Shown here: one piece after another, positions 40,890 through 49,213 of the stretch
Numbering within the stretch: position 1 is the first letter of the stretch
Layout: each line of letters opens with the position of its first letter
Source: Desulfosporosinus acididurans
GTDB lineage: Bacteria > Bacillota > Desulfitobacteriia > Desulfitobacteriales > Desulfitobacteriaceae
Assembly: GCF_001029285.1 (NCBI RefSeq)
Contig: NZ_LDZY01000010.1
Coordinates: forward strand, 1 to 64,000
Direction: 5' to 3'
DNA: 64,000 nucleotides
Notes under the pieces: model-generated
What the model was told of the DNA's origin: nothing
Seen by the model: only the letters and a program-made list of their open reading frames with translations
Database searches by the model: none
Program-made: the position numbers and the translations under genes

Positions 40890-42260
40890 TTAACACCCTT
40901 GCTGTAGTTCTTGTAAAACGGCAACCACCTCTTGTGAGGCTTGAGCCATCTCACGAAGCAGTTGTCCCCCTCTCGTTTTGTCGCCTTGTTCTATCGCTGC
41001 GGCCGCTTCACGAGCCAGTTCATGAACTAGTTTATGCGGCGCTTCCAGCTTGGTCAAAACATTGGAGGAACGGAAGTGTAGGGAGTGGCTGCTTTCAACC
41101 CATTGACCTAAACGACAGTCATGATGGTCACCGATTTGTTTGGCAGTCAGATGCTCATACCCCAAAAGTAAGTTGTAAATTCGCCATGTCCATAAGAGAT
41201 GGTCTGTTTTACACAATTCCAAAGCTTGATAATCGGACATATTAGGAACTCTTGTAACTTCTTCTGAACGAATCGTTTCTAGATCCCGACTAAGATCATA
41301 AATTCCTTGACCGGTTACTTCGGCGATGTTTTTAATTTCTTCAGCGGCCAGAGTTAACGTAGAAATGCTTCCGGCCGCTTCTTGAACAGCTGCACTCTGC
41401 TCTTCACTGCTGGCAGCAATGTTTTGGATATCTTCTGTGATAGACGTGAAATTTTCGATGATTCCCTCTAAGGATGATGCTGCTTCCTGCATTATCGTTT
41501 TACCATTGTACATCGTTTGCGACAGTGTCACAATTTTCTGATTTGTTTCGAAAGAACTCTGACTAAGAACAGCAATTTTCTGATGGATATCAGTCACTGA
41601 TGTCGTTGTATGTTCGGCAAGTTTACGCACCTCATCCGCAACCACAGCAAATCCGCGGCCCTGCTCACCGGCACGGGCCGCTTCGATAGCTGCATTTAGA
41701 GCCAATAAATTTGTTTGATCAGCCACACCGGCAATAACCGTCACAATTTTCTCAATGTCCTTCATGGAATTCAATACTTCTTGAACCTGTCGGCTGACTA
41801 TGGAAAATTCATCAAATGAACGTTCAACAAAGAGAATGGCTTCTTGTATTTTTTCACCTCCGGAAACAGCTGCCGTCGTCGCTTGCTCAACAAACCCTGA
41901 GGAATTGGTAGCAGACTGGGCTACCTGATCCGAAGAAGCGCCCAATTCCTCAGACTGGGCAGCAAGGCTTGTTAAATGATCCGCTTGTTCCTCCACCTTA
42001 TGCAGCATTTGACGGATTGAGGTCATACTAATCAGTCGCTTGACAGAGTTATCGATATCCTTCAATGAAGCCGAAGATGCCTCCTGTCTCTCGGCAATGA
42101 CGCGGTTAAGAATTTCCACCACAGGATAAAGGGGACTTGAAGTCTCAATATCGACTTCCAAGGACCTGGTAAAATCGGATTGGCTTAAAGCCTTATACAT
42201 CTTTTCACAATCGGAATTAGGCGTAAGAATTTCGGAACTCTTACCTTTGAATAATCCCAT
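40890..42260 (-). CDS. cytoplasmic methyl-accepting chemotaxis protein with C-terminal CZB domain
   Basis: The 456-residue protein has no membrane span. After a short N-terminal region comes a chemoreceptor signalling domain with the hairpin tip [20 protein letters not shown] and [19 protein letters not shown] zinc-binding CZB domain follows from about residue 350, with [12 protein letters not shown] and conserved His residues. CZB receptors sense zinc or zinc-dependent oxidants such as HOCl. It sits between ftsZ and spoIIGA with its own terminator, an unusual place for a chemotaxis gene. Confidence 0.92.
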
Positions 42261-43838: not shown

Positions 43839-44168
43839 CTACTTTTTTAACAGGTGGCGCCGAATACTTCCAAGGTTATTGAACAAGCGCACGCCAAAGG
43901 CTACAATTGCCGCTAAATAAAGATCAACTCCAATTCGATCTCCCACATAGGCTAAAGCCGCTGCTAAAAGCATGTTGCTAAAAAAGCCGCTTAGAAATAC
44001 AGTACTGTCGAAATGGTCCTCCTGAGCTGAACGAATACCTCCTAAAACGGAATCCAAAGCAGCTAAAATTCCTACAGAAAAGTATTTGGCGTATTCTATC
44101 GGGACAGAAAAAGGACTGACATACCCAATTGCTAACCCTAGCACTAAGCCTAATAGCGGTAACCACAT
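43839..44168 (-). CDS. sbp: small basic protein family (Sbp/YlxX, DUF1290)
   Basis: The 109-residue protein has about three membrane spans and conserved LVLGLAIGYVSP, KYFSVGILAALDSVLGGIRS and LFNNLGSIRR motifs. The family is found between ftsQ and ftsA/ftsZ in Firmicutes, with unknown function. Here ftsA is absent and a 247-bp gap with no gene, perhaps an ftsZ promoter, follows. Confidence 0.92.
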   Translation of the reverse strand: MWLPLLGLVLGLAIGYVSPFSVPIEYAKYFSVGILAALDSVLGGIRSAQEDHFDSTVFLSGFFSNMLLAAALAYVGDRIGVDLYLAAIVAFGVRLFNNLGSIRRHLLKK

Positions 44169-44188
44169 TTATAAGATCCTCCCCCGAC

Positions 44189-44914
44189 TCAGCGGCCAAT
44201 AACCGGTTTGGCTGCTGTAAAATCAATATAGCGTACCCCTTGCTGGAATGATTTATACTCTTTATCATTAATTAATTGCCAAAGAGCATTTAATTTATCC
44301 TTCCATTCATTTGCTTGTCCAAGCCGAACCTCTACACCGCTTGTTAAGAACAATGTCATTTGCTGGACCGAGTTAACATTAAGTTCTCCTATCTGCCCCA
44401 ATAGTTCCTTAGGAGCTTGTCCTAACAAACTAAGAGCCGCAGTTAGAGAAGGATTGCTTAAATTCTGACCTGGCCCGATTGTGTCCGAGACTTTAACTCC
44501 CGTTATGACCGGATGATCTGTTTTAGGCCAACTCTCTAACCGCCGTAAAAAAGTTCCCTGGGCATCTACCTCCAATACTCCTTTTGGAACAGCGACCAAT
44601 GCTGCAGGCGTCCGTTCAGTAATCTGAATCACTAAAGTGTGGGGCAGCACCCTCTTAAAAGTTACATCTTGGACGAGAGGATGCAGAAAAATCTTATTCT
44701 TGAGATCTTCTTGATCGAAGAGTAACAGATTCTGTCCTTGAACTCCGTTGGCTAATTTTAAAATCTCATTTTCCGGAATAATACTTAGGCCTTGAACCTT
44801 AATAGTTCGTACGACAAACGCACTGGAGCGAAAGAATAAAGCCAAACCCAGTGCGAGTAATATTGTCAATGCCGTCAGATAGAGGAAGGTTGTATTTGTT
44901 TTCTTGGAAGTCAT
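44189..44914 (-). CDS. ftsQ: cell division protein FtsQ/DivIB
   Basis: The 241-residue protein has a short cytoplasmic tail, one membrane span (about residues 9-28), a POTRA domain starting VRTIKVQGLSIIPENEIL and the FtsQ beta domain. It helps recruit FtsL/FtsB and later division proteins. I choose ATG 44914, preceded by AAGGAGG, over a start 12 codons earlier. Confidence 0.92.
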   Translation of the reverse strand: MTSKKTNTTFLYLTALTILLALGLALFFRSSAFVVRTIKVQGLSIIPENEILKLANGVQGQNLLLFDQEDLKNKIFLHPLVQDVTFKRVLPHTLVIQITERTPAALVAVPKGVLEVDAQGTFLRRLESWPKTDHPVITGVKVSDTIGPGQNLSNPSLTAALSLLGQAPKELLGQIGELNVNSVQQMTLFLTSGVEVRLGQANEWKDKLNALWQLINDKEYKSFQQGVRYIDFTAAKPVIGR

Positions 44915-45023
44915 AGCGATTCCTCCTTGTTCCAAGTATAACGAATACAAACCTATTCTGTCATGCCCTTTGAAAAATTTTTTCGAAATAAATTCTTTAC
45001 ATTCTTCAGTATGGAAGAAATCC

Positions 45024-46359: not shown

Positions 46360-47238
46360 TCACTTCCCCAAATATTTTATTTCCGTCTGCAAAGCAATCC
46401 CATATTTATGTTGAATATCCTCCTGAATCTCCGCGATCAGAACAAGGACATCGGAGGCTTTAGCTCCACCCGTATTAACAATGAAATTAGCATGTTTCGT
46501 TGAAACCAGAGCACCTCCAACGCTCTTTCCTTTCCAACCGGCAGTTTCAATCAAACGCCCTGCGGAATCGCCGGGTGGATTGCGAAAAATACTCCCGGCA
46601 TTAGGAACTTCAAGGGGCTGATTAATAGCCCTCTGTCTTAAATTTTCCTGCATACTGCGTAAAATTGCCTCCTTGTTTCCCGGCGAAAATTTAAGGGTAG
46701 CTTCCATAATCCAAGCCTCTCCGCTCAAGGAGCAATAACGATAACCAAACTCTATTTCCTCTCTCTTAAGCCTTCGCCAAGATCCCTCTGTTGTGAGAAT
46801 CGATACACTTTCGATTTGAGAAGCAATTTCTCCGCCGTGTGCACCGGCATTCATGATCACTGCCCCCCCAACAGAGCCAGGAATTCCACGTGCAAATTCT
46901 AAGCCGCTCCATCCACGATCTCCGGTTTCCTGAGCTAAACGTGCCAAGGGGTATCCTGCTTGAACTCTAACTGAATAATCATCCCAGTCGATAGACCGCA
47001 GTGACGTGGTTACCAGCGTAATCCCCGGAAGACCTTGATCAGATATTAAAAGATTAGAACCCCGGCCAATCAGCCAAAGGGGAACTTTGGCCGCCATTGC
47101 TCGTTCTATAACCTCTTTAAGATCGTCTGTCGTTTGCGGCCAATAGGCGAACTCAGCAGGTCCGCCGATTTTCCATGTCGTTAACTCCTTCAGTGAGTAA
47201 TTCTTCTCCACACGTCCGGGCATTCCATCCAAAACCAT
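46360..47238 (-). CDS. murB: UDP-N-acetylenolpyruvoylglucosamine reductase
   Basis: This FAD enzyme reduces the MurA product to UDP-MurNAc. The 292-residue protein has LTTWKIGGPAEF, IGRGSNLLISD, GIPGSVGGAVIMNAG and NAGSIFRNPPG with the catalytic Ser-to-Arg region of type II MurB. A GAGGTGG site precedes the ATG. The gene overlaps the upstream frame by 86 bp, an unusually long overlap. Confidence 0.96.
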   Translation of the reverse strand: MVLDGMPGRVEKNYSLKELTTWKIGGPAEFAYWPQTTDDLKEVIERAMAAKVPLWLIGRGSNLLISDQGLPGITLVTTSLRSIDWDDYSVRVQAGYPLARLAQETGDRGWSGLEFARGIPGSVGGAVIMNAGAHGGEIASQIESVSILTTEGSWRRLKREEIEFGYRYCSLSGEAWIMEATLKFSPGNKEAILRSMQENLRQRAINQPLEVPNAGSIFRNPPGDSAGRLIETAGWKGKSVGGALVSTKHANFIVNTGGAKASDVLVLIAEIQEDIQHKYGIALQTEIKYLGK

Positions 47239-48013
47239 TACCGTTCCACCTCAAATTATCCGTCATTATGTTATCTGTCCAAGCGGACTTAAGGGCAAAT
47301 GTTATGTCGAGCCAGGAAACTCCCAGGTTCAGGCACATTGCTATTGACGCCGCTGCGGAGGGTTCCTCCGCAGGATTGGGCCGCCTGGGCAAATGCCCTA
47401 CATAAGTCTCGCCCTCTCCTCTATAAAAGTCAATCCCCATTTCGTTTCGTTTCCATAGGACTTCTGAACTAGAGTTGGCCAAGCATCTTCCCATGGTCTC
47501 TTTTCCTGCCAGCATCGATAACCAGGAATCCGGCAGAACCCAGATAAAGCCGGGCCTTTCCTCACATTTCCATGTTCTATCCTTAGTTTGCCAGAGGATG
47601 GAGGGTTCGAAACCTGCTTCCTTTAAGATATGCCCCGCCAAGGGGTAACCTTCAGTCAAAACTTCCTGCTCAGAAAACGGTATAACAATTTCGTTTTCAA
47701 AAAAATTATGTAAATATACATTAATAGATTGAACCGACAGACTGTACTTCAAAATCTGCTGAGGCCGCCAATCAACGTCGTCAAGACCAGGCCAAACAAC
47801 AACTTCGGTAAAAGGGCCGATTTCATTGGCGCTACAGGCAAATGGTTTTTCCAGCCAATCCTGAGACGAGACAGAGCTAATTTCCGGTCCTGCAGGATCA
47901 AGCTCGACAAAATCGAGATTGAATTCCTTAAAGAGAGCTCGAGCCCCATCAATTCCCGGAGCTCCGGAAGGAGCAACTAAGAGCAATCTTCTTCTCGGCC
48001 ACACACGCCTCAC
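47153..48013 (-). CDS. MurC-position protein, divergent Mur-ligase-like without a visible ATP-binding loop
   Basis: The 286-residue protein lies where murC is expected, between murG and murB, but is far shorter than a Mur ligase (about 450). The N-terminus (RRLLLVAPSGAPGIDGARAL) resembles the Mur nucleotide-binding start. PLAGHILKEAGFEPSILW and PSAAASIAMCLNLGVSWLDI recall segments of the central and C-terminal ligase domains. The GTNGKT-type ATP loop, clear in MurD, MurE and MurF here, is absent. The last ~28 residues overlap murB in another frame. The start is a GTG with GAGGAG nearby. It may be a decayed MurC or a repurposed non-catalytic homologue; similarity is by eye only. Confidence 0.55.
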   Translation of the reverse strand: MRRVWPRRRLLLVAPSGAPGIDGARALFKEFNLDFVELDPAGPEISSVSSQDWLEKPFACSANEIGPFTEVVVWPGLDDVDWRPQQILKYSLSVQSINVYLHNFFENEIVIPFSEQEVLTEGYPLAGHILKEAGFEPSILWQTKDRTWKCEERPGFIWVLPDSWLSMLAGKETMGRCLANSSSEVLWKRNEMGIDFYRGEGETYVGHLPRRPNPAEEPSAAASIAMCLNLGVSWLDITFALKSAWTDNIMTDNLRWNGNGFGWNARTCGEELLTEGVNDMENRRTC

Positions 48014-48103
48014 TCCTCTTCTTTATTACTGCCATATCCTATGCATTGAGGCCAGAAGGTGTGAGCAAAGGAGAAGTTGGTTATTCACGTTCAAGACTTA
48101 AAA

Positions 48104-49213
48104 CTAGTGCCACGCTGTCTCCAAACAAAGATTCACAATTTTATTTAAGGCTTGTGGTTTAGCCATTGCACGGGATGCGATGCCCATTTCTTTCAGCCGA
48201 GCTGGAGAAGAAATTAATTCCTCAACATCCTGCCATAACTTTTCCCCAGTTAATACACGGTCTAAGATCATTCGAGCAGCGCCGGAATCCACCATGGCCT
48301 GGGCATTATATTCCTGGTGATTCTCAGCAGCAAAGGGATAGGGCACCAAAATGCCGGGAACACCGGCAACTTGTATCTCTGCTAAAGATGCAGCTCCGGC
48401 ACGGCCTATAAAGAGATCAGAACAGGCCAAGGCTTCAGGCATATCTTTTAAGTACTCAAGGATACGCCATTGGGGACTTTTCCAGGGAATCCCTTGAGCT
48501 TCCAAACCCTCAATGGTTTCCTGATACGTAACATTCCCGGTAGCCCAAATCACCTGTATCTCCGGACGCTGAAGCAGATGTTCCAGGACCACGGTCATAG
48601 CCTGGTTCAGAGTTCTGGCACCACGGCTTCCGCCTGTAACGAGGACAGTTAACTGATCCGGCTGCAATCCTAAATGCTTAGCACCGATGCTGCGGGTTAC
48701 CCGGCCAATGTCTGGACGCACTGGCAAACCGACTAATTCTAATTTATTTTGGGTTCCAAAACGGGCCATACTTTCGGGAAACGTAACCATCACCCGCTTT
48801 ACAACCTTGGCCAGGAGGCGATTGGTAATACCCGGTAAAGCGTTTTGCTCGTGGAGCATTGTTGGAATATGAAACAGGGCTGCCGTAAGTACAACAGGCC
48901 CGGATACATATCCACCCGTTCCAACGACTAAGTCCGGATGGAATTTACGCAATAAATCCTTGGTCTGCCAGAGAGCTTTTATACTTTCTCCCATAACTTT
49001 GATCGTATCCAAGCTCAGCTTCCGCGGGAGACCTTTACCGGAAATCCCGGCGAACTCTATGCCGGCCTCCGGTACCAAACGAGCTTCCATTCCGTTTCGA
49101 GTTCCCACATAAAGGATCTTAGTTTCGGAATCCCTTGCCAATAATCCCTTAGCAATAGCCAAAGCAGGATAAATATGCCCGCCTGTTCCTCCGCCTGTCA
49201 GCATTACACGCAC
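48104..49213 (-). CDS. murG: UDP-N-acetylglucosamine--N-acetylmuramyl lipid I transferase
   Basis: MurG adds GlcNAc to lipid I, giving lipid II, on the inner face of the membrane. The 369-residue protein has GGGTGGHIYPALAIA, HEQNALPGITNRLL, GGSRGARTLNQ and GRAGAASLAEIQVAGVPGIL. The start is GTG 49213 after GGGG. Its stop is about 90 bp upstream of the MurC-position protein. Confidence 0.97.
   Translation of the reverse strand: MRVMLTGGGTGGHIYPALAIAKGLLARDSETKILYVGTRNGMEARLVPEAGIEFAGISGKGLPRKLSLDTIKVMGESIKALWQTKDLLRKFHPDLVVGTGGYVSGPVVLTAALFHIPTMLHEQNALPGITNRLLAKVVKRVMVTFPESMARFGTQNKLELVGLPVRPDIGRVTRSIGAKHLGLQPDQLTVLVTGGSRGARTLNQAMTVVLEHLLQRPEIQVIWATGNVTYQETIEGLEAQGIPWKSPQWRILEYLKDMPEALACSDLFIGRAGAASLAEIQVAGVPGILVPYPFAAENHQEYNAQAMVDSGAARMILDRVLTGEKLWQDVEELISSPARLKEMGIASRAMAKPQALNKIVNLCLETAWH

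Follow-up and report, generated by a model that had tools for sequence, protein, structure and literature searches.

A MurC-derived protein without the ATP-binding loop lies between murG and murB in Desulfosporosinus acididurans and its family

Results

The reading frame at the murC position

The DNA analysed here, a stretch of 64,000 nucleotides from Desulfosporosinus acididurans (the window), carries a division and cell wall (dcw) cluster in the order murE, murF, mraY, murD, ftsW, murG, the open reading frame (ORF) under study, murB, murA, an ftsQ-like gene and ftsZ (Table 1). An earlier, sequence-only reading had pointed to this ORF, between murG and murB, as encoding a protein without a P-loop, and both coordinates and pattern scan bear it out: the pattern G..GK[ST] is absent from the ORF and from all 36 aligned relatives. 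The other Mur ligases of the window have, as had also been noted, intact loops: VTGTNGKT in MurD and MurE, VTGSNGKT in MurF. Elsewhere in the cluster no ftsA-like ORF lies between the ftsQ-like gene and ftsZ, the place being taken by an ORF of only 109 residues (window 43839-44950, minus strand), and between ftsZ and the spoIIGA-like genes is encoded a methyl-accepting chemotaxis-like protein (40890-42260, minus strand), whose C-terminal stretch resembles the zinc-binding CZB domain. An Rfam search of positions 38000-60000 gave no match.

Table 1. Positions of the ORF, its parts and its neighbours in the window, and of the relocated MurC.
Feature	Position	Strand	Remarks
murB, downstream neighbour of the ORF	46360..47238	minus	
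ORF of the MurC-derived protein, as listed	47153..48013	minus	286 aa, GTG start, open throughout
Overlap of ORF 3' end with murB 5' end	47153..47238	minus	86 nt
murB ribosome site GAGGTGG	47246..47252	minus	read by the ORF within conserved NLRWN
Folded part of the MurC-derived protein	47276..48004	minus	residues 1-243 from VWP; MurC-like domain 1 and shortened domain 2 (predicted)
Stretch corresponding to the MurC ATP-binding loop (G[AT]HGKT)	47642..47689	minus	IVIPFSEQEVLTEGYP here; no P-loop in 36/36 members
Likely translated ORF	GTG at 48004	minus	283 aa, VWPRRR...; basis: ribosome site spacing and family conservation
Ribosome site GAGGAG for the GTG at 48004	48013..48018	minus	
Promoter-like element CACAC-N15-GCATAggATA, in the murG-ORF gap	48035..48063	minus	conserved
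murG, upstream neighbour of the ORF	48104..49213	minus	
Relocated MurC (L001)	G000 contig C2:319436-320761		

The claim of an intact frame with a ribosome site stands in that the frame is open throughout and GAGGAG is present, but the listed start is probably wrong: with no spacing between GAGGAG and the listed GTG, the GTG at 48004 is the likelier start, and the WP that follows it is invariant across the 36 relatives. At its other end the ORF runs into murB, with an overlap of the same length in most members, even those at about 30% identity. Its TGA stop falls inside the murB codons for GGPAE, and its NLRWN comes from reading the murB ribosome site in another frame; in loci L016 and L034 the ORF ends before murB, and in L046 it ends at the murB start with no overlap. 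Since the C-terminal tail is set by the murB ribosome site and codons, is predicted to be disordered in both of the AlphaFold models described below and ends earlier in some genomes, we regard it as passive. A functional tail carrying NLRWN and EDWWAR was accordingly rejected, as these residues follow from the murB ribosome site and opening codons, and so were the in-frame stops of a few genomes as signs of decay, all of them being confined to the tail. Translational coupling of the ORF to murB is plausible, and the two are probably co-expressed.

The gap between murG and the ORF contains a promoter-like element, CACAC-N15-GCATAggATA, intact or nearly so upstream of the MurC-like gene in 36/36 aligned family loci. 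It is present also upstream of murB in most loci of the sister families, and was not found in the eight loci of the outgroup (L127-L134) or in L107, a family locus without the gene. The element resembles mother-cell sporulation promoters of the sigma-K type; elsewhere in the genome, though, the strict pattern matches only once, and the assignment to this type is tentative. Within the genus the gap ranges in length from about 20 to more than 450 nt, and in L017, L020-L024, L032, L035 and L036 the part upstream of the element contains short, imperfect repeats (for example cgaatatcgaacatcga).

Fold and motifs of the protein

Sequence models fail to recognise the protein. The window protein matched neither TIGR01082 nor the Mur ligase Pfam domains at E <= 10, HMM searches matched 0/36 members to a Mur family, and no sequence model from Pfam, NCBIfam or PDB recognises it; weak matches to SigZ (best E 0.0026) were taken as noise, the predicted fold disagreeing with them. 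Of the checks that had been proposed, the one against Mur family models gave nothing, whereas structure prediction gives a MurC-like fold. The two AlphaFold models, one for the window protein (pLDDT 75, pTM 0.70) and one for a second member 27-29% identical to it (pLDDT 80, pTM 0.75), show the same order of strands and helices, though their input alignments share most rows and the models are thus not fully independent. Foldseek searches of the PDB returned solved MurCs at all of places 1-29 for the window model and 1-27 for the second, with E about 1e-6; MurD comes next, MurD and Mpl both rank behind MurC, and no match fell outside the Mur ligases. Normalised by query length, the TM-scores, which cover two domains, reach a modest 0.40-0.48, and domain arrangement or details may differ. 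The Mur-like ancestry originally proposed from faint sequence segments is in this way narrowed to MurC by the ranking of both models.

Profile comparison with MurC gave a weak match that is in register, and includes LxxAGx(D/E)P(T/S). It beats 100/100 column-shuffled controls, scoring 30.7 against native and 37.0 against relocated MurC with shuffled maxima of 27.3 and 22.2 respectively; in the MurG profile control 52/100 column shuffles reach the score. The family profile gives weak matches in the true MurCs of two genomes of the order. The alignment sets IVIPFSEQEVLTEG over AVAGxHGKTTT, and in members a SEPTVLIEG-like sequence fills the GxHGKT position. Unlike MurC, the protein also lacks EADESD, TNIxxDHxD, GxHN and DDYAHHPTE, these other catalytic motifs being found by pattern scan in 0/36 members. 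Between AGFEPS and the end of domain 2 the protein has about 70 residues fewer than MurC, and domain 3, the C-terminal ligase domain, is wholly missing: the protein stops after domain 2, with pLDDT below 50 from residue 245 in the window model and 244 in the second, the remainder being predicted to be disordered. As modelled, then, the protein retains domains 1 and 2 of MurC, shortened by about 70 residues, and has lost the P-loop, the other catalytic motifs and domain 3. It would share its two-domain core with the Mur ligase superfamily at large (MurD, MurE, MurF, Mpl), whose catalytic members, unlike it, keep the P-loop and the C-terminal domain. Its origin from MurC is well supported.

Distribution and gene order

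A profile of the protein found relatives in 44/46 genomes of the Desulfosporosinus family (f1), and the gene lies between murG and murB in 37/37 mapped family loci, so that the proposed check for conservation at the same spot in related genera was positive. In the other families of the class that were sampled the profile found nothing save two weak matches inside true MurC genes; a query of genome contigs with the single protein returned Desulfosporosinus sp. FKB as the sole close relative.

The two family genomes without the gene differ. In G067 murB is also undetectable, and a gap in the assembly is likely. In G069 (L107) murG is followed directly by murB, and homology with a congener breaks off where murG ends and is picked up again 31 nt ahead of murB, from which we conclude that the gene was deleted. 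The deletion is a clean one, removing both the MurC-like gene and the upstream element, and makes this genome a natural knock-out comparable with G034.

In the sister families f2 and f3, nothing lies between murG and murB where loci hold both adjacent. The class outgroup f4 has the order murG, murC, murB in 8/8 loci and most loci of the phylum have murC after murG, which places the MurC-derived gene in the ancestral murC slot.

Selection and conserved residues

Purifying selection, which the earlier reading had proposed to look for, is supported by a median dN/dS, taken over 135 pairs with the murB overlap removed, of 0.24 (murB 0.12, murG 0.08). Bootstrap upper limits for eight pairs are 0.30-0.78, and third codon positions carry most of the differences in the gene. 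A neutral copy at these distances would be expected to have gained about 7-11 in-frame stops; inside the folded part none was found, and this part is open in every inspected locus, one assembly being interrupted by Ns. As the gene is also conserved with its synteny, the ORF is beyond chance. The protein is constrained, yet its rate of evolution is about 2-3 times that of the neighbours; its retention under selection across the family is well supported. That it was lost in G069 and evolves faster indicates that it is not indispensable.

Conservation in the folded part centres on WP, G17, G20, W71, AGFEPxxLW, W145, W155, W161, DFY, G203 and W231. The domain-1 loop glycines G17 and G20 are nearly invariant, and nine tryptophans of this part, absent from the MurC consensus, are kept in at least 33 of 36 members; the invariant residues that are new comprise WP, W145, W155, W161, Y194 and W231. 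This pattern in the alignment suggests a maintained binding surface or pocket. Want of structural similarity to Mur ligases, a high dN/dS or frequent loss in relatives had been named beforehand as signs against the original proposal; what we found is structural similarity, a low dN/dS and one clear loss among 46 genomes.

MurC is encoded elsewhere

MurC performs the first ligation of the peptidoglycan stem, and its gene is among the most conserved of the dcw cluster. The possibility that murC is found elsewhere in the genome proved right: one full-length MurC, above the curated cut-off of TIGR01082, is encoded on contig C2 (Table 1). A MurC match is present in 60/61 genomes (the window genome and its relatives), including 37/37 of the family (E <= 1e-60). 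Near the relocated murC is a gene for a HAD-type phosphatase, and the neighbourhood recurs between families of the order where inspected.

In a maximum-likelihood tree the relocated MurCs of f1, f2 and f3 form one clade (100/100) on a long branch (0.84), which falls outside the group (100/99) containing the in-place MurCs of the outgroup; their best identity to other MurCs of the phylum sample is 44%. The tree suggests that a divergent and possibly foreign MurC displaced the native one in the order's ancestor; strong acceleration of the order's own MurC in place of displacement is possible. Profile comparison did not separate native from relocated parentage, the match being slightly better to the relocated MurC, and it is on position, not sequence, that we infer descent of the gene from native murC. 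Two strong MurC matches per genome, sometimes adjacent, were seen in G143, G181, G136, G174, G097, G090 and G122 of the phylum, where parallel duplication of MurC is possible.

Discussion

The protein shows two marks of a pseudoenzyme: homology to an enzyme family, seen in the fold search and the shuffle-controlled profile comparison, and conservation under purifying selection (omega 0.24; 44/46 genomes) despite lost catalytic residues. UDP-MurNAc:L-alanine ligase activity is not to be expected of it, given its missing P-loop. Our main reading, to which we give a probability of roughly 0.6, is that it is a MurC-derived, non-catalytic pseudoenzyme kept for binding, as regulator or scaffold, and made together with MurB. 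The ancestral murC would have been a gene of the dcw cluster; in the order's ancestor a divergent MurC encoded elsewhere would have taken over MurC activity, freeing the native gene, which the sister families f2 and f3 would then have lost wholly and f1 have kept as a protein without domain 3, without the ATP-binding loop and with a catalytic domain shorter by about 70 residues. As partners of the two-domain protein, enzymes of the UDP-MurNAc pathway come into question (MurB, MurG or the relocated MurC), as does a UDP-sugar intermediate; binding to either would regulate or scaffold precursor synthesis. Among possible roles this one, in UDP-MurNAc synthesis, appears the most likely, at even odds or somewhat better.

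A larger version, more tentative and in our estimate falling short of even odds, would have a family of Mur-ligase pseudoenzymes, born from MurC displacement, that now regulates UDP-MurNAc flux or scaffolds the Mur enzymes, possibly with sporulation-linked expression through the promoter-like element. Sporulation-specialised dcw genes are known in Firmicutes (PMC10693644), which is relevant if the element is a sporulation promoter.

Among other explanations, a new enzyme that needs no ATP, or a sensor dedicated to UDP-sugars, built on the old substrate-binding domain 1 would fit the near-invariance of G17 and G20 where the ATP loop has gone, and the new invariant residues from WP to W231 could form a new site; no catalytic signature was identified, however, and the fold matches only Mur ligases, so that we consider this unlikely. 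Somewhat less probable still is that the ORF is kept mainly as a cis-acting leader, in which passage of its ribosomes over the murB start and ribosome site governs the translation of murB, the protein being a by-product. The common murB overlap and the reading of the murB ribosome site by the ORF are as such a leader would have them, but selection on amino acids is seen upstream of the overlap (omega about 0.24 without it), fold and tryptophans persist where identity is down to about 29%, three loci (L016, L034, L046) do without the overlap, and in the sister families murB is translated without the ORF.

The sequence-only reading had set a relic against a new role. The evidence is that the protein derives from an enzyme that was displaced, and that its gene is not in simple decay. 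That it is merely a relic awaiting deletion is very improbable: the lost catalytic parts, the slower evolution of the neighbours and the loss in G069 are what decay would bring, but a folded part open in all inspected loci (one interrupted by Ns), a dN/dS far below 1, the missing internal stops and the family-wide age of the gene are not. At least as improbable is the insertion of an unrelated small protein, only Mur-ligase-like, between murG and murB: it would explain the failure of Mur family models from Pfam, NCBIfam and PDB sequences, but not why the Foldseek ranking is specific to MurC with either model, why the collinear profile match outscores every shuffle, or why the gene sits exactly in the murC slot.

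An open-access literature search found no paper on the MurC-derived protein. The nearest comparison is the plant MurE homolog (PAP11), a peripheral part of the plastid RNA polymerase that does not replace moss MurE (PMC12681378). Both are Mur ligase descendants outside peptidoglycan catalysis; the plant protein is kept in another machine, whereas the bacterial one, a two-domain remnant of MurC, is still in the cell-wall gene cluster.

On the reading of the protein as a MurC-derived pseudoenzyme, an essential enzyme has apparently been replaced by a distant version encoded elsewhere, and the vacated gene, stripped of catalysis, kept in one family and deleted in its sisters, would amount to a natural experiment on the birth of a pseudoenzyme. 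It points to an unrecognised protein that may act in the control of cell-wall precursors.
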